Shown piece after piece: positions 27,450 through 57,960 of a stretch of DNA of 64,000 bases; within the stretch, counting starts at the first letter, position 1; each line of letters begins with the position of its first letter. The notes beneath the pieces were generated by a model. The model ran no database searches. It was not told the DNA's origin and saw nothing but the letters and a program-made list of their open reading frames with translations. Origin of the DNA: Owenia fusiformis (lineage: Eukaryota > Annelida > Polychaeta > Sabellida > Oweniidae); NCBI GenBank assembly GCA_903813345.2, contig CAIIXF020000007.1, positions 15,794,714 to 15,858,713 on the forward strand, read 5' to 3'. The translations under genes were made by a program, and so were the position numbers.

Positions 27450-31848
<4,399 letters not shown>

Positions 31849-52900: not shown

Positions 52901-55900
52901 ACACATTATAAGAAAGGTACACACAAAGTAGACACTAGACATGGTTATTCATAATTTAATTTCTCTTTTGAAAATAATAGTGGCCCTGAAAAGGGCCGTT
53001 TTGGTTGTTTGGTTGTTGTCTCATTATAAGATCTGATTTAAGGCCTGTTGTAGCCTAATTTCAGCTAAAGCAGTGTCATACTCAGACTTCTTGTTTTCTG
53101 CATAGACCCAAAACATCTGCATGACCTCATCATAACAGGCCATCTTCAGACGAAGGCTGTAACAAAAGGCTTGGTTTTGGTTTCTCTTGGCTCTTCTGTA
53201 GCGGGTCTTCAGCATAGCGACCTTGCTCTTAATGGTCATCACTTGCTTGGCTGCTTTGATACATGCTGTACGCAGACCAGCGATTCTGTCTAACTCACAG
53301 GTGTAGGTGGGGTTGTCAATGGCAACGCTGTTTGATGATTCCATGTTGATTGATTCGATTTTGGTTGTTAGCTTGTGTGGTTCAGTTGTAGATAATGATT
53401 CCCTTCCAGTCTGCTTGGTATTTATAAGAAATCTGAGTGACATTTGAGCATAGGATTTAGACTGTGACATCTCTTCTCAGAGAATGATATGACATTGAGT
53501 AGTGATGTCATGGCTTGGAGAAGGTGTTGATATCATTTGAGTAATAGTGTCAAAACAGGATATTAATCATGGAGATAATCTACCAGGAGATTATGAGGGG
53601 ATTACCAGTGGGATTATAACAAATACAATCAGCAGATTAACTGCTATGTGTTTACTAAGGATTATAATTAACTCAGTTATTATTAATCCAGGTATGGATT
53701 AAAATATTTTTTACCAAAATTATTTCTGAAATCTGGAGGTTCTAAGTAAAATTTATATTCAAAGAAATAAGAAGTTAATGTTGTAGTATTATATATTGTA
53801 TAAGTGTAATGTTAAAAAAACATTCACAGTACAAAGTAAAGTCATTTTGGTATTTTTATAGATAATGATTTTAAATTGCATAATAAAAGTTAATTGTGGT
53901 GGGCTTATACTAAGGAGTCCAAGAACAATCCAATCAAATTACTCCTTTTCAGGAAAGGATTCAAAATTCCTTATTTGTGGAAATTCAGACGTTCTGGGCA
54001 AAGCATAATCAATACTAGATATTTATGAATATGATATTGTATTGGCACTGTTTTATCATAACTTGAAGACTGCTTGAGATGTTTGGTTCATATTTGTCAG
54101 ACAGCTATTTTTCATAATGGTATATTCATTTAAAATGGCAGCCATTTCTTTTGAGTCGACTATCAAGTACATGTATTTCAATTGGTTTTTAACTTGAATA
54201 CCTCGTGATGAATTCCGTTTATATTTAAAAGCCTATAAAATGGGTGTAGTCTTGATGTAATGTTCAAAATAAGCAAATATATGAGAAAAAATATTTTGTT
54301 TGGAGTTGCTGTTTTCCTACAGTTAGCAAGGCCGTCAGATGGGGGGGGGGGGGGGGGGGGGGCGATGGGTGCACCCCCCTTTAACAACCCTCAAAAAATT
54401 GAAAAAAATTGTGTGATTTTTTCAAATTATTTAAGAGTCATAAGAAAGCACCAAATAGCATCTTAAGATTAAATTTTCTAGGAGAGTTGGTCACCCCTCA
54501 CTTCGCCCACAAAACAATTGAAATAATTCTGAATTTTGTGTATTGTCTCAGACACTTTTATAGTTCCCAGACATCATCAAATAGCTCCTTGATATAGTCA
54601 ATGATTCTTGGAGACTTAACACTTACTCGCCCTCTGGCATCCCCACCCAACCTCCCCTCTGGCACCCCCCCCCCCCCCCTTTAACAATCCTCAAAAAATT
54701 GAAAAAATTGTGTGATTTTTTCAAATTATTTAAGAGTCCTAAGAAAGCACCCAATAGCATCTTAAGATTGTAAAATTTTCTTGGGAAGTAGGCCACCTCT
54801 CACATCCCCCACAAACCAATTGACAAAACTTCTGAATTTATTTCATGTATTGTCTCATACACTTTTAAAGTGCCAAGATATGGTCAATGTTTCTGGGGGA
54901 CAGATATGGGGGACAAACACTTGCTCCCCCTCTGGCACCCCCACCCAACCTCGCCCTCTGGTTCCCCTCTTTGACCCCCCAAAATTTGGAAAAAATGTAA
55001 TTGTTTTTCAATTTTGTTAATGACTCATAGACTTAAAAAGTGCCCAGAAGCACCATATATCATCTTGAAATTGTAAAATTTTCTAGGAGAGTTCGCCACC
55101 CCTCGCTTCCCCCACAAAACAATTGAAAAAATTCTGAATTTCTAGATTCTCTCAGACATTTTTAAAGTGCCCAGACATCATCAAATAGTCAATGTTTCTC
55201 GGCGACAACCACTTGCTCCCCCTCTGGCTGCCAACCCCACCTGACCCTCTCATCCTCTTTGACCCCAAAAGAATTTGAAAAAAAGTCACCTAGTGACAAA
55301 ATGAAATCAAAAAAATTTCTAGCACCCCTCCCCAAAAACTAAAGCATGCATTTACTCAAATACATTAAAAGTGCTCGGAATTAACCAGACAGCATCTTGA
55401 ATTGGTCATACAATATTTAGTCTAAAAAAATAAAATACTACAAAATAGGCTGAGTGGCCCCACTATAGGGAGTAACCGACCCCCCCCCCCCCCTCTGACT
55501 TATGCGATTTGATCTACGTGGCAAAAAAAATTATATTGTGTTATTTAATTTCTGGTGAAATTGGGAGGATAAAATGTTTTCAATTGAAATTGAATTACAG
55601 TTACAGCAGTTGAATAAAAAGAGTATTCAATTGAGTTACGTAGAACATCCATCCATCCATTCAATATACCAATACGCGATAACGTTTAATTTGTTCAGTT
55701 TAGCTGCCTCCCGTTTGAAGAGCTCTCATGTATGGTACAACTTCGTCTACATCCGGGTTATTTCCCATTGGATTACACAGGGGTGCTATTTTCAATGCCA
55801 CACTGCAACTCTATTAAACATTTATGTAGTGTTTCATTTGCACAAACGATAGGTATGTATGTAATTAAGATATATGACAAAGCTTTTTGAACTATAATCC

Positions 55901-57960
55901 CCAAATCCGAAGAAATGTGTAGTTGAAAATGCCGTCCAATTCCAGGGACGTCACTGATATCCCAGAAAGTGCTCAGACGCCATCAGAATCTTTCTGATTA
56001 TTGAATAGATTGGATTATATAACTATGCTTGAGGGCTGATGGAAGATCAGAAGCTGAGAAACGTTCAGAGTAATCGACTCGCTCGGCGGGCCAATGAAAA
56101 TTTGTCCCTTCCAAAGCGATGCATCATGGGAGATATTTATGTAAATTACCACCTGAACTCTTATCGCGAATAGGAGTATTGTTTTGCTTTTAAACATGAT
56201 TTCATTCATAATTCATTTCTCTTTTGTAACCAATAGATGGCCCTGAAAAGGGCCGTTTGTTGGGTTTGATTTGTCTCATTATAAATACTGCACACAGGCA
56301 GCTGCAATTGCAGCGTGATATTTACACTTCTTACACTCAGCATCATCATATAACACTTGCAGTGCCTCCTCGTAGTGGCTCAGTGTCTTGAGACGTAGGC
56401 TGTACATGTAACAGAATTTCTGCTTCTGGCTCTGCTTCAGTTGCTTGTAGCGGCTCTTGATCATGTGGATCTTGTCACAAAGGTTGATGCACTGCTCAGC
56501 AGCCTCCATGAACTCAGTGCGAAGCTGAAGGATCTTGTATTTCTCACTAGGTGACATTAGAGGGTAGACAAAACTCAGCTCATTTGGTGCAATGGTACTT
56601 GTTTCCATGGTACTCTTGTTCATTGTGTTGTCTCTAGCAATTTTCTAGATAAATGATTGGCCATACATTCCTCTGTGTATTTATTGGAAATCAATGACAT
56701 TTGAGCAAGGGATTGAGAAAGTGACTTATTTACTCAGAAAATGACCTTGAGAAGTGATGTCATGACTGTGAGTAGGTATAACATGATTTTAAGCAGTTGC
56801 AGTTTACAAGGGATTATTTCCAAGTAGTTTTTAATTGTTCATGGAATCTTGGATATGCACTGGTATTAAAACATGGGGATTATCACATTGTTGATAATCA
56901 GTTGTGATATGCACTGGTATTAAAACATGGGGATTATCACATTGTTGATGAGCCTTTTTGAAACAATCTGCAAAGATATAATATTCCCTATATTCTTCCA
57001 TTATTCAACCATAATACAGTAAAATTACTACTGTATTGTACATTCAATGAGCTAGTGTCCATATGCTCTCCCTCTTACTGTTTTTCTAATAGACTTGATG
57101 GGAGTAGAAATAATATTGATTTACATCATTAAATATTCAAAATTCAGTCAAGGTGATGTCATGTTTGAAATCTATATGTAAAATTATATTTTGAAAGATG
57201 GTTTAGAAAATTGTTTATGAACTTTGAAATTTTTTTTTTGAAAATGTGACTTTAGTTCTGGTTGATTCCTCATAGACCCCATGTTACAAAATCACAAAAA
57301 GTGCAATATCGTTTCTTGTATTGGACAGATAACATTTTCTTTTACTAGACATATTTTAATTTGCATAACTATTAGATACATAAGGGTTATATGAAAATTG
57401 AACCACTTAAACAGATGCAATTTAAGTTAAAGGGAACTTTCTAGTATAACTGCCATGCTATCTGACATAAATGAGCCATCTTGTGGTGAATCTGGTAACA
57501 ACCTATTCACATCTGCGTTATTAGAATAAATCTGTGAAAAGCCTAAACTGAAGCAATGCCCTCCCCCCGCCGAATTAAACACAGACTCAATGGGGGTAAT
57601 TTCTTTTTACATTATACATGTAGGGCATGTTTTCTCAGGACTTTACACTTAACTATTCTACACTCTCCTCCAAATGTTTCTGGAAGTCTTCTTTTGGATC
57701 ATGAGTTAAAATCTCTTTATGTTAAAGGCAATTTTAGAACAAATTAATAAATTGTCATACCTTTCTGACCTATTATACTTTAGGAACAAAATTAGTTTTG
57801 AAACATATACAAGCACACAATACAATGGGGACTCATGGTACATTGCTAAATTCATGGAGGGGATGTAACTACTCATAATGTATGCCATCCTGTTTTATTT
57901 CAGGAAGATGTTGGAATTGAAACAGATGAGGAATATAATGTGAAAATTCCCAGTAAATAA
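34929..57960 (+). CDS. PSMC3IP: PSMC3IP/HOP2 meiotic recombination factor, 9 exons, 212 aa
   Basis: HOP2 pairs with MND1 to stimulate DMC1/RAD51 strand exchange in meiosis. Exons: 34929-34953, 38638-38732, 38903-38992, 39443-39554, 40021-40091, 51449-51523, 51737-51790, 52417-52476, 57904-57960; 639 nt, all phases agree. The N-terminus MSK...EGILQYLTKQNRPYSAIDV is the winged-helix region, followed by VLESLAQEGKIREKLNGKQK. Residues ~80-150 are heptad-rich. The C-terminus EDVGIETDEEYNV is the family signature. The first exon is short and is chosen because MSK begins known orthologues and its G|GTATGT donor is in the right phase. AATAAA is at 58287-58292. Introns 5 and 8 host other genes. A 32-bp duplication copies the exon 3 donor. 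Confidence 0.92.
35085..36570 (+). repeat. Direct repeat of ~340 bp in PSMC3IP intron 1
   Basis: The segments about 35090-35430 and 36225-36565 share CACATGTAATAAATTCTTAC, CTCAGTGTATTCAGTGCTCT, TATAGTGGAATTTGTGTCC and GGCTCCCAGAATGCAACATG, ending TGTTGCATTCTGGGAGTCAA. The last two words are inverse-related within each copy. Roughly 90% alike. Confidence 0.8.
36774..37118 (+). repeat. Direct repeat of ~105 bp
   Basis: 36774-36878 and 37013-37116 share TTTAGCTGAAATC, GTTTGTCGAAAACGAAAGAA, GATGACGCTA and TTAGAGTCATCCA followed by TGGAACAGTG. Non-coding, in PSMC3IP intron 1. Confidence 0.7.
37499..38014 (+). repeat. GTCACCACC-ended element, second long copy
   Basis: Starts with the hairpin GTCACCACCAAAAAGTGGTG, then ATATTGTTATGGTCTC. 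It carries about two array units with TTCAAAATCATCTACAAGTT and TGACCTTCAATGAC, and ends GTGAGCAACAACTAGGTGG then GTTAATGCCTTG. Inverted relative to 23753-24641. Confidence 0.8.
38015..38637. other. PSMC3IP intron 1, distal part
   Basis: No repeat that I can delimit and no exon. The polypyrimidine acceptor TATTTTTCAG precedes exon 2. Confidence 0.4.
38981..39044 (+). repeat. 32-bp tandem duplication across the PSMC3IP exon 3 donor
   Basis: The 32-bp unit beginning GTGGTAGACCAGGTAATTAC occurs twice in exact tandem (38981-39012, 39013-39044). Each copy contains the splice donor CAG|GTAATT. Use of the second donor would add 32 nt and meet an in-frame TGA after five codons. Confidence 0.95.
40303..41412. 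mobile_element. Mariner-like MITE (1.1 kb) with internal tandem array
   Basis: Ends CAGGGTGGGCCAATAAAATG and, inverted, CAGGGTGGGACAAAAAACG are flanked by TA on both sides. The interior holds about five ~110-140-bp units with GATAACTCAAATACCA, TGGATTTGGTT, CTGATGCCTAGGGACA, and CAAGATGGCC/AATGGCCGCCATTTTT. No transposase. Located in PSMC3IP intron 5. Confidence 0.8.
41823..43485 (+). repeat. Composite repeat with GGTCCAAGTC runs, ~130-bp units and TATCCTTCC microsatellite
   Basis: Opens with the hairpin GACTCCAGATGTCAATCTGG and closes with AGTCTAGATCTGGAGTC and GAACTTCGTTC. Between these are about three units of TCAGGAATCCGAATCT, TTTTGATCCGACTTCC, GGTTCGGAAGTTATGGCGTT, two CCAGGTCCAAGTCAAG runs (about 42380-42470, 42610-42690), and a TATCCTTCCTATC run (about 43185-43360). 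Reading frames here are not genes. Confidence 0.65.
43878..45139 (+). repeat. TTATCCCATCGAA element, copy 3 (longest)
   Basis: Starts TTATCCCATCGAACGAAG, then CGTCCGTACGTACGTAC and CCGTCCGTCCG runs. It contains about five ~130-bp units (ACTCGAAAAGTAGTGGAGCG each time) and ends GTTCGATGGGATTCGCTACG then TTGCCGTTGTTCTGG. The unit count differs from the other copies, so the array changes length by unequal exchange. Confidence 0.85.
45140..46000. repeat. Array remnant interrupted by a MITE
   Basis: A stray unit (GTAGTGGAGCGATTTTGTTC at about 45690) is split by the CAGGGCTCTC MITE at 45732 and resumes with AGCATGGCATTTTGGC. An ACTACACTACATTACACTAC microsatellite lies at about 45538-45562. Confidence 0.6.
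45732..45957. mobile_element. CAGGGCTCTC MITE, copy 2, 5-bp target duplication
   Basis: Same family as 8885-9112, with identical end sequences. The flanking duplication is AGCAT (45727-45731, 45958-45962). It inserted after the surrounding array had formed. Confidence 0.87.
46001..47016. other. Region upstream of the UGT gene
   Basis: Decayed array units up to about 46250, then unremarkable sequence. A TATA-like ACTATAAAAACC (46983-46994) lies 25-35 bp before the UGT start codon. Confidence 0.4.
47017..48591 (+). CDS. UDP-glycosyltransferase (UGT), intronless, 524 aa, nested in PSMC3IP intron 5
   Basis: ER-membrane enzyme family that transfers sugar from a UDP-sugar to small lipophilic acceptors. 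A signal peptide is at residues ~1-22. The C-terminal UGT signature runs from W348 (WIPQNDLLGHPKVKLFVTH) through CGCSSTYESIYHALPVV to the sugar-contact D390-Q391. One membrane span lies at ~484-506, followed by a short cytosolic tail ending KTKRD, a KxKxx ER-retrieval form. The usual catalytic His in the N-terminal S-H-x4 motif is Arg here (S36-R37); the partner Asp is probably D140. The start is the ATG at 47017. No intron is visible, and it lies on the same strand as the host gene; a retrocopy or an intronless family member is possible. Its last codons seed the following minisatellite. Confidence 0.9.
   Translation: MKEMKYLVMMLSCLMGITEVWSAKILVNPYSQGFNSRLMNMEKLTWLLLEDGHDVSMVVNSRYDETMRPISKNVTFFKYDVPDNAVLINDEEVISTMQKASLIEGINLIVNISCSACEDVLASGILQILKAQNFDLFFFDYAEDCARFLVDYLDIPTISYVNEGAGSELIFGTLGHPEPLAIVPSLLVGFPDAMTFLQRVENTVTNIIMHCIAYNTFQHFTTLRTKYGFNTSLSIMDTNSRGVALQFSNNHNVLDWVRPLMPNHIYIGGIYFAPPKSLPINLEAIVEKASTNGIIVASFGSIFKSSFLDRELIEQMAIAFASIPMTVIWKYSGEPPKALGANTHLISWIPQNDLLGHPKVKLFVTHCGCSSTYESIYHALPVVTIPLSVDQYKHSTQLTSRLDMGVEVDFTTLVNTTLIHAINKVIGDPSYRKNAQDASKLIKDNPNNPKDLFLYWVNYVIRNKGAKHLKSKPMQELYLFQYFLLDVFLFLGGILTLVIIIGVASIKFIYRKLMLLCTSKTKRD
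48540..49090 (+). repeat. ~70-bp minisatellite, 8 units, grown from the UGT 3' end
   Basis: AATTAATGTTGTTATGTACA-type units begin at 48550 (inside the CDS) and about 48621, 48750, 48819, 48889, 48959 and 49029; a variant unit is near 48690. Each contains AAGTAAGACTAAAAAAGAT and GTGGTTAACTATGTTTCAT. The first unit includes the last 13 codons and the stop. Confidence 0.93.
49130..49971. mobile_element. TTAA-targeting DNA element (piggyBac- or Kolobok-like), 0.84 kb
   Basis: Ends are TTTAAAGGCCCCATGTAAAG and, inverted, TTTAAAGTCCCCGTCTAAAG. Each begins with a TTAA that would be the target duplication. The AT-rich interior carries no transposase. Confidence 0.7.
49972..51448. other. PSMC3IP intron 5, distal part
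   Basis: A 16-bp tandem duplication GCACACTGGATTGTTT is at 50881-50912. A partial copy of the TTAACCTCTTGAATCCCAGG element starts at 50918 and loses similarity after about 50990. No gene is seen. Confidence 0.45.
52733..52900 (+). mobile_element. tRNA-derived SINE, copy 2
   Basis: A box TGGCTAAAGTGG (52743-52754) and B box GGTCTGATTCC (52787-52797) have tRNA spacing. The tail CACACTCCCTTTCAAGTC, ATCTGGCTCGTTACA and GAGGGCTCAGAGTCATTACA matches the SINE at 33999-34205. Located in PSMC3IP intron 8. Confidence 0.7.
52959..52970 (-). promoter_or_regulatory. Histone downstream element-like U7 site, gene A
   Basis: On the minus strand this reads CAAAAGAGAAAT and contains the AAAGAG core of histone downstream elements, which base-pair with U7 snRNA. 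It starts 11 nt past the stem-loop and is identical at gene B (56215-56226). Similarity continues into ATTATGAAT. Confidence 0.75.
52982..52997 (-). terminator. Histone-type mRNA 3' stem-loop, gene A
   Basis: The minus strand reads GGCCCTTTTCAGGGCC: a perfect 6-bp stem with a TTTC loop, matching the animal histone mRNA consensus (GG-Y-Y-C-U, UUUC, A-R-R-G-CC). It is preceded by CCAAAAC and followed by ACT, as at histone 3' ends. It lies 26 nt after the stop. The U-rich loop occurs only on the same strand as the ORF. Confidence 0.9.
53024..53344 (-). CDS. Small helical protein A (106 aa), unknown family, with histone-type 3' end
   Basis: I do not recognise this protein. It is rich in Lys/Arg and Ala/Gln and looks helical, with a central RTACIKAAKQVMTIKSK, MLKTRYRRAKRNQNQ and FCYSLRLK. 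It aligns with gene B over its last ~85 residues (LRT, AA-Q, RY-K, FCY, YSLRLK, AE-KK, Q-L at the end). It is not an obvious histone fold. The start at 53344 (MESSNS) is chosen because a TATA box lies at 53419-53426; the frame is open upstream to 53470, but that ATG precedes the TATA box. The 3' end carries a histone stem-loop and U7 site and no AATAAA. It lies antisense within PSMC3IP intron 8. Probably intronless and cell-cycle regulated (inference). Confidence 0.72.
   Translation of the reverse strand: MESSNSVAIDNPTYTCELDRIAGLRTACIKAAKQVMTIKSKVAMLKTRYRRAKRNQNQAFCYSLRLKMACYDEVMQMFWVYAENKKSEYDTALAEIRLQQALNQIL
53417..53515 (-). promoter_or_regulatory. Promoter module of gene A (conserved with gene B)
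   Basis: On the minus strand, in order: CATGACATCACT (a CRE-like TGACATCA), CTCAATGTCAT, TTCTCTGAG, GTCACAGTCTAAATCC, TGCTCAAATGTCA, GATTTC and TATAAATA (53419-53426). The same words in the same order and spacing stand before gene B. Confidence 0.75.
54330..55500. repeat. ~300-bp tandem repeats with long G/C runs
   Basis: Starts near a run of 22 G (54341-54362). Units repeat CCCCCTTTAACAA, CTCAAAAAATTGAAAAAATT, GTGTGATTTTTTCAAATTAT, AAGAAAGCACC, CATCTTAAGATT, CCCACAAAACAATTGA and TTGCTCCCCCTCTGGC. About three and a half diverged units are present, and C-runs recur (54664-54680, 55478-55493). No gene; reading frames are chance. Confidence 0.7.
56215..56226 (-). promoter_or_regulatory. Histone downstream element-like U7 site, gene B
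   Basis: The minus strand reads CAAAAGAGAAAT, identical over 12 nt to the site at gene A, and begins 12 nt past the stem-loop. It is followed by GAATTATGAAT, also shared with gene A. Confidence 0.75.
56239..56254 (-). terminator. Histone-type mRNA 3' stem-loop, gene B
   Basis: The minus strand reads GGCCCTTTTCAGGGCC, identical to gene A. It lies 24 nt after the stop, preceded by CAACAAAC and followed by ATCT. A TTATAATGAGACAA block spanning the stop codon is also identical in the two genes. Confidence 0.9.
56279..56623 (-). CDS. Small helical protein B (114 aa), paralogue of A, with histone-type 3' end
   Basis: Unrecognised family. Residues ~30-114 align with gene A: LRTEFMEAAEQCINL, KIHMIKSRYKQLKQSQKQ, KFCYMYSLRLK, HYEEALQVLYDDAECKK and final VQYL. 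The N-terminal 30 residues are Ser/Thr/Pro-rich and differ. An internal Met at residue 6 (METST) may correspond to the gene A start. A TATA-like AATAAATA at 56678-56685 predicts a start site near 56650, so the first ATG (56623) is used. Like gene A, it has a histone stem-loop and U7 site downstream, no AATAAA, a shared upstream module, and no intron. The proteins are probably coiled or helical-bundle; no function is assigned. Confidence 0.72.
   Translation of the reverse strand: MNKSTMETSTIAPNELSFVYPLMSPSEKYKILQLRTEFMEAAEQCINLCDKIHMIKSRYKQLKQSQKQKFCYMYSLRLKTLSHYEEALQVLYDDAECKKCKYHAAIAAACVQYL
56676..56768 (-). promoter_or_regulatory. Promoter module of gene B (conserved with gene A)
   Basis: On the minus strand: CATGACATCACT, CTCAAGGTCAT, TTTCTGAG, GTCACTTTCTCAATCC, TTGCTCAAATGTCA, GATTTC and AATAAATA. 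The first and fifth words are essentially identical to gene A, and spacing is within a few bases. Confidence 0.75.
56850..56953 (+). repeat. ~52-bp tandem duplication
   Basis: GATATGCACTGGTATTAAAA followed by CATGGGGATTATCACATTG occurs twice (about 56850 and 56906), upstream of gene B. Confidence 0.85.

Follow-up and report, generated by a model that had tools for sequence, protein, structure and literature searches.

The two genes considered here are likely intronless members of a large superfamily of non-histone proteins, the messages of which are made by the machinery that forms the 3' ends of histone mRNAs. They lie in a stretch of 64,000 nucleotides (the window) of the genome of the annelid Owenia fusiformis, and both ORFs consist of a single exon on the minus strand. 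Provided that the order of the contigs is alphabetical by chromosome name, the window very probably belongs to O. fusiformis chromosome 4.

In the original prediction, the two genes were said to carry an identical 16-nt stem-loop and an identical 12-nt downstream element. Both identities hold, with GGCCCTTTTCAGGGCC following each stop codon and CAAAAGAGAAAT following each stem-loop at the distances collected in Table 1. The two stem-loops are found by the Rfam model RF00032 with E-values of 3.3e-8 (first gene) and 2.7e-7 (second gene), and they are the only matches over its cut-off of 34 bits in the whole window. A stem-loop pattern with at most two mismatches also gives two sites in the window, and two or more sites occur in none of 100 shuffles. 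In both genes, CAAAAGAGAAAT at 11-12 nt is equivalent to AAAGAGA at 13-14 nt from the stem-loop. The predicted lack of AATAAA is likewise found, in that the signal does not occur within 600 nt 3' of either stop, but one ATTAAA is situated 63 nt past the stop of the first gene, where it overlaps the last bases of the U7-type element. The arrangement of stem-loop and element is shared with the 3' ends of replication-dependent histone mRNAs (RF00032; SLBP/U7), which have the same 6-bp stem, 4-base loop and purine-rich element 13-14 nt further on. With the corresponding histone genes the window genes also share the short 3' UTR, the single-exon ORF, the multi-copy state, and letters that match those of the H1 and core histone genes of this genome.

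Table 1. Positions, within the 64,000-nt window, of the two genes and of the signals on either side of them.
Feature	Position	Strand	Evidence
ORF, 106 aa, basic helical-hairpin protein (predicted), family A, first branch	53024..53344	-	ORF reading, model, dN/dS
Histone-type stem-loop GGCCCTTTTCAGGGCC, 26 nt 3' of stop	52982..52997	-	RF00032 39.8 bits, cut-off 34
U7-type downstream element CAAAAGAGAAAT, 11 nt past stem-loop	52959..52970	-	shared with the genome's H1 and core histone genes
TTATGAAT directly past U7-type element of first gene	52947..52954	-	TGAAT enrichment over shuffles
TATAAA, 82 nt upstream of first gene's ATG	53421..53426	-	sequence
Cluster of five TAATCC/GGATTA sites	53596..53701	-	site count
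ORF, 114 aa, basic helical protein (predicted), family A, second branch	56279..56623	-	ORF reading, dN/dS
Histone-type stem-loop GGCCCTTTTCAGGGCC, 24 nt 3' of stop	56239..56254	-	RF00032 37.3 bits, cut-off 34
U7-type downstream element CAAAAGAGAAAT, 12 nt past stem-loop	56215..56226	-	sequence reading
TTATGAAT past U7-type element of second gene	56204..56211	-	sequence, TGAAT enrichment
AATAAATA, TATA-like site, 62 nt upstream of second gene's ATG	56678..56685	-	sequence
Cluster of three TAATCC/GGATTA sites	56811..56936	-	site count

The claim that this is the full 3'-end anatomy of histone genes can be judged against the histones of the animal itself, and here the signals and their spacing turn out to be equal. 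According to the accessible text of PMC12153100, the core histone genes of O. fusiformis number 35 in a cluster on chromosome 5, 29 in another on chromosome 8 and four on chromosome 7, and are organized in units of H4-H3-H2A-H2B with H2A on the opposite strand. The genome searched has 498,259,871 bases in 525 contigs, labelled C1, C2 and so on. In a search with PF00125, C8 and C11 turn out to have large arrays and C10 a small cluster; C8, C11 and C10 are chromosomes 5, 8 and 7 if the contigs are sorted alphabetically by chromosome name, and the layout of the core unit that was read agrees with the published one. In one such unit, the 3' ends of H3, H2A, H2B and H4 are made up of GGTCCTTCTCAGGACC and an AAAGAGA-like element; other copies of H2A and H2B have the stem-loop GGCCCTTTTTAGGGCC or GGCCCTTCTCAGGGCC. 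All of the 20 H1 genes read have a stem-loop, with the letters of the window genes in 13 of them, and all have the element (at most one mismatch), always at a distance of 14 nt. The stem-loop is also present in each of 11 core or variant histone genes read, and the element in nine. The H1 genes are close in kind to the window genes, being dispersed and single-exon, with the CTTTTCA-type stem-loop (13/20) and an equal element.

The RNA-binding domain of SLBP is encoded by one gene, with PF15247 over its cut-off in two adjacent exons on C5. For U7 snRNA, the best match to Rfam RF00066 in the genome reaches 24.2 bits compared with a cut-off of 34. Two patterns, modelled on the Sm sites of U7 in vertebrates and flies, gave in the genome no match for the one and, for the other, three matches versus five in the reversed control, none with a convincing 3' hairpin. 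No convincing U7 candidate emerged from these searches.

When the genome is searched with the protein of the second window gene, there are six strong matches, here called family A, and many weak matches clustered elsewhere. The six family A genes form three neighbouring pairs on one chromosome, and the weak matches constitute a related branch, B (hhalign of A versus B, probability 97.2%, E 3.2e-11). A query from B gives 85 matches, from which four family A genes and the fragment C6:36417927 were removed, leaving 80 for the counts. The B class itself is defined as 75 loci, with L046 (absent from the 85) added and the fragments on C3 merged, and with L075, L076, the fragment C12:1467991 and C3:20048772 placed outside it. 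A strict stem-loop is found in 6/6 family A genes and in 71/75 branch B loci, and it is accompanied by AAAGAGA (at most one mismatch) in 5/6 and 68/75, respectively. The modal spacing between stem-loop and element is 14 nt in H1 genes, in core histone genes and in B. There are 78 intact ORFs of at least 100 aa in A and B, and the strict stem-loop is retained in 75 of these, in 71 together with the element; three intact ORFs bear degenerate stem-loops. Damaged stem-loops occur at four B loci (L099, L109, L131 and L160).

Outside the B class, the C12 fragment (L170) has a truncated ORF and a one-mismatch stem-loop, and no stem-loop was found when the locus C3:20048772 (L171) was read. Nor is there a stem-loop at the superfamily members L075 and L076, the former with AATAAA 275 nt past its stop, and on these two grounds they may represent an ancestral, polyadenylated state. 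Branch E, four genes on C8 (L166-L169), is related to the superfamily (hhalign probability 96.8%, E 2.6e-10) and has AGCCCTTTTCAGGGCT with a U7-type element in 4/4 genes. Branch C, two genes on C1 (L019), likely belongs to it as judged by profile comparison (85%, E 5.9e-6) and has both signals in 2/2. Inclusion of a further family, D (L020, L036-L038), is unsupported, with an hhalign probability of 33%. The E-values given for branches E and C each rest on one comparison, between helical proteins and from a small number of sequences, and could be too favourable. ORFs followed by a matching stem-loop and U7-type site, for which a search was proposed together with the original prediction, comprise about 80 superfamily members as well as other ORFs; the size of the superfamily is comparable to that of the published set of 68 core histone genes. 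Its 3' ends differ from those of replication-dependent histone genes by an A-U first stem pair in part of the superfamily and by extra stem-loops ahead of the main one in 12 of the 77 A and B loci. Two or three tandem stem-loops per U7-type element are seen at L010, L008, L115, L128, L130, L132, L137, L139, L140 and other loci of branch B.

Just past the U7-type element, histone and non-histone genes alike have TGAAT, often as TTATGAAT. Within 35 nt past the element it occurs in 4/6 genes of A, 64/71 of B, 18/20 of H1, 9/11 of the core histones and 19/23 of the other ORFs; when each piece is shuffled, the expected numbers are 0.6, 7.7, 2.0, 1.1 and 2.3, respectively. We know of no name for this motif.

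Substitution rates indicate that the ORFs are under purifying selection. The ratio dN/dS is below 1 in 1366/1366 B pairs with dS from 0.15 to 1 (median ratio 0.21) and in 4/4 family A pairs with a usable dS (ratios of 0.21 to 0.37), where the pairs are not mutually independent. The first window gene has dN/dS of 0.136/0.600 and 0.140/0.676 against its paralogues, and the second 0.107/0.320 and 0.111/0.297. Between the two window genes, synonymous sites are saturated and dS cannot be computed, and still their stem-loop and element are identical. To see how the stem is maintained, consider the 45 distinct stem-loops of A and B, in which 98.9% of the stem cells are paired. The first pair is GC in 38, AU in three, UA in one and unpaired in three, and at the third pair 35 stem-loops have UA and the other 10 CG, so that both sides have changed in 4/45 sequences at pair 1 and in 10/45 at pair 3. 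The covariation score is 0.185 versus 0.094 in shuffles, with 0/500 shuffles as high, although two of five covariation measures fail to beat the shuffles, being reached by 183/500 and 481/500. The compensated base-pair changes and the conserved spacing of the element point to stem-loops that are in use.

The two window proteins, of 106 and 114 aa, are 41% identical to each other. An in-frame ATG upstream, at 53470, would extend the first ORF to 148 aa, but the 106-aa form is the likelier because TATAAA is located between the two ATGs. As originally claimed, the proteins do not look like histones, and a profile search places them in no known histone family: the window proteins match no Pfam family above its cut-off, nor do 20 superfamily members searched at E up to 0.1, for which no histone family is listed, and the superfamily loci are not among the matches of the whole-genome PF00125 search. 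With only the two window sequences as AlphaFold input and the 106-aa protein first, the best model has a pLDDT of 82.9 and two long helices, 12-54 and 58-105 (43 and 48 residues). The other models of this run range from 82.2 to 65.0, and three of the five are at 65 to 69. The alternative input order, starting with the 114-aa protein, gave a pLDDT of 57.7, and that model was left out of the fold search. Foldseek with the 106-aa model gave nothing at E 0.001 or better, its top matches being generic helical hairpins. Judged by the 106-aa model, the proteins resemble small, basic hairpins built of alpha helices.

Family A proteins are basic throughout, with net charges from +4 to +11, and in B proteins residues 26-105 make up a basic core (median +4), to which an acidic tail (median -10) is added. 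The tail is a trait of branch B, and the window proteins are basic without this layout. The layout of B is reminiscent of histone chaperones, which is only a suggestion. It is a tentative and on balance quite doubtful idea that the superfamily proteins act on chromatin, or in the handling of histones, in gametes or at cleavage stages, and are made in step with the histones. Tubulin-binding cofactor A (PF02970), also helical, has weak profile similarity to 6/6 B members, but membership was rejected with all members listed below the cut-off (best E 5.1e-4 and 15.2 bits for the member shown, compared with 30.3). The coiled coil of BAP31, matched by the 20-member profile at E 6e-5, was taken as a coiled-coil match, and bS21, matched by the B profile at E 0.045, as a coiled-coil or chance match.

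If histone-type processing operates on these genes, as the sequence suggests, the course of events would be as follows. Transcription would proceed from TATA-type promoters, SLBP would bind the stem-loop and the U7 snRNP would pair with CAAAAGAGAAAT by way of a U7 5' end for which the putative partner is AAAGAGAAAT. The SLBP/U7 machinery would then cut the RNA a few bases past the stem-loop, so that an unspliced, short message without a poly(A) tail would be stored and translated. Like replication-dependent histone messages, it would be both translated and destroyed through SLBP, and its appearance might be coupled to S phase or to storage in the egg. The accessible text of PMC12153100 has O. 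fusiformis histones expressed in the zygote and during cleavage, which would suit superfamily messages that are stored in the egg or made at cleavage stages.

Three other explanations have to be weighed against this. One is that the stem-loop and the element survive as relics: recombination or a mobile element would have supplied an ancestral gene with the 3' end of a histone gene, copies of this gene would have multiplied, and their messages would now have normal poly(A) ends. Mobile-element ORFs of this genome do bear equal ends (below), four B loci have damaged stem-loops, and ATTAAA or AATAAA is found near some loci. Relics would, however, be expected neither to show compensated base-pair changes and a conserved element spacing, nor to keep a strict stem-loop in 75 of 78 intact ORFs, nor to leave 16-nt and 12-nt signals identical in two paralogues that are synonymously saturated, and we consider this explanation improbable. 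Another is that the genes have dual ends: cells that divide or belong to the early embryo would use the stem-loop end, and other tissues a poly(A) end. No further than 100 nt from the element, ATTAAA occurs in 21/77 and AATAAA in 9/77 of the A and B loci, so that a poly(A) signal to fall back on may be present at some of these loci, and there is a precedent in that some human H2B genes yield polyadenylated mRNA (PMC3661734, from its accessible part). The window genes themselves lack AATAAA for 600 nt, which argues against it here, and dual ends are on the whole rather unlikely.

The remaining explanation would make the 3' ends ordinary, by taking the proteins as very divergent histones or histone-fold proteins. 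It accounts for small, basic proteins from intronless, multi-copy genes with histone-type 3' ends. It is hardly credible in view of the Pfam results for the window proteins and the 20 members, the PF00125 search of the whole genome without these loci, and the two long helices of the 106-aa model, which is without the short-long-short histone fold; the idea of a divergent histone was rejected on these grounds. Processing by the histone mRNA 3'-end machinery, in messages for non-histone proteins, is accordingly the explanation that we prefer.

The exact stem-loop pattern occurs at 96 sites in the genome and at one site in the reversed control. The inventory comprises at least 115 sites (96 exact and 19 more by Rfam), with 100 of 272 sites of the stem-loop search among the matches listed and Rfam scoring on 75 candidates. 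Of the 115 sites listed, A or B genes account for 55, and the other 60 were read. These belong to 20 H1 genes, five core or variant histone genes, one B-like ORF, 12 other small ORFs, two GDSL-hydrolase-like ORFs, two transposase ORFs and five repeat-like ORFs, and 13 are without a clear ORF. A 337-aa DDE_3 (Tc1-like) transposase (E 7.8e-18) at C3:1550600-1553900 (L161, L031) has a stem-loop and a U7-type element downstream, and in a decayed relative (L029, L164) the element is preceded by a stem-loop of variant sequence. At C1:50078500-50086600 (L163), a perfect inverted repeat of 2,677 nt surrounds an ORF of 629 aa for a reverse transcriptase (RVT_1, E 6.3e-13), which may be from a Penelope-like element; each arm of the repeat has a 251-aa ORF, a histone stem-loop, a one-mismatch element and an upstream ACGTCCGC. 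Seven near-identical dispersed loci (L026, L035, L049, L052, L053, L064 and L070) have a stem-loop and a U7-type element without a clear ORF, most of them with two more stem-loops about 100 nt upstream; a further 3 kb upstream of one copy contains no ORF of at least 100 aa. On C10 there are three copies (L055, L056 and L057) of a Cys-rich ORF of 92-100 aa with histone-type 3' ends, and the one copy scanned has no Pfam match.

From this arises a wider reading, to which we give an even chance: that the SLBP/U7 pathway in Owenia is a general expression channel, without a histone monopoly, serving about 80 small helical-hairpin proteins, mobile elements and several families of small ORFs that are unrelated to these proteins. 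Mobile elements that took the histone ending would, on this reading, have their messages made when and where histone messages are made.

The accessible parts of PMC6303110 and PMC2642717 describe histone messages as the sole animal protein-coding mRNAs of the non-polyadenylated stem-loop kind, and PMC2642717 and PMC12775136, as far as accessible, give the setting for why non-histone genes with histone ends matter. In a literature search with partial coverage that included few subscription journals, no non-histone animal mRNA or family with a histone-type end was found, and in the main text of the O. fusiformis histone paper (PMC12153100), in its accessible part, the words "stem-loop" and "polyadenyl" are absent. 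The originally claimed rarity of such ends outside the histones therefore agrees with the papers, but it does not hold for this genome, with its approximately 80 superfamily members and several other ORFs. The machinery is known, and a large non-histone family that uses it would, as far as we have seen, be new. With some 80 genes that encode no histones but have intact ends of the histone type, the ending becomes separable from histone promoters and histone proteins, so that its own role in cell-cycle coupling, egg storage and SLBP-driven translation or decay can be asked for, with natural variants on offer in the form of an A-U first pair and of two or three stem-loops per downstream element. 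It is also predicted that poly(A)-selected transcriptomes of O. fusiformis under-count a whole gene family. If all this is true, the histone RNA ending is a wider channel than in the textbooks.

The upstream regions were compared for loci with a placeable ORF (e.g., 60 of the 75 B loci), family A being treated separately with 1000-bp upstream pieces. In contrast to the superfamily, H1 genes have ACGTCCGC upstream (16/18), which is likely a linker-histone promoter element of O. fusiformis; it occurs in no family A and in none of the 60 B upstream regions examined. It is therefore the RNA end, and not the promoter, that histones and superfamily have in common. Family A has instead clusters of TAATCC/GGATTA, which we take to be a K50 homeodomain-type site. 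The frequency of this site is 0.56 per kb in the window, with 5 and 3 sites in the 500 bp upstream of the two genes, and when the window is divided into 127 tiles of 500 bp, three or more sites occur in just two, both upstream of these genes. The other four A genes have 3, 1, 3 and 1 sites and most B genes measured have few; the site is also enriched upstream of L019a (4), L020 (5), L023 (4) and L036-L038 (6, 5 and 8). Upstream of the second gene, at 56870-56990 of the window, a stretch of about 40 bp with TAATCC is duplicated in tandem. Elsewhere in the window, three copies of the snoRNA SNORD18 are found on the plus strand, at 29053-29123, 31125-31197 and 31573-31645.
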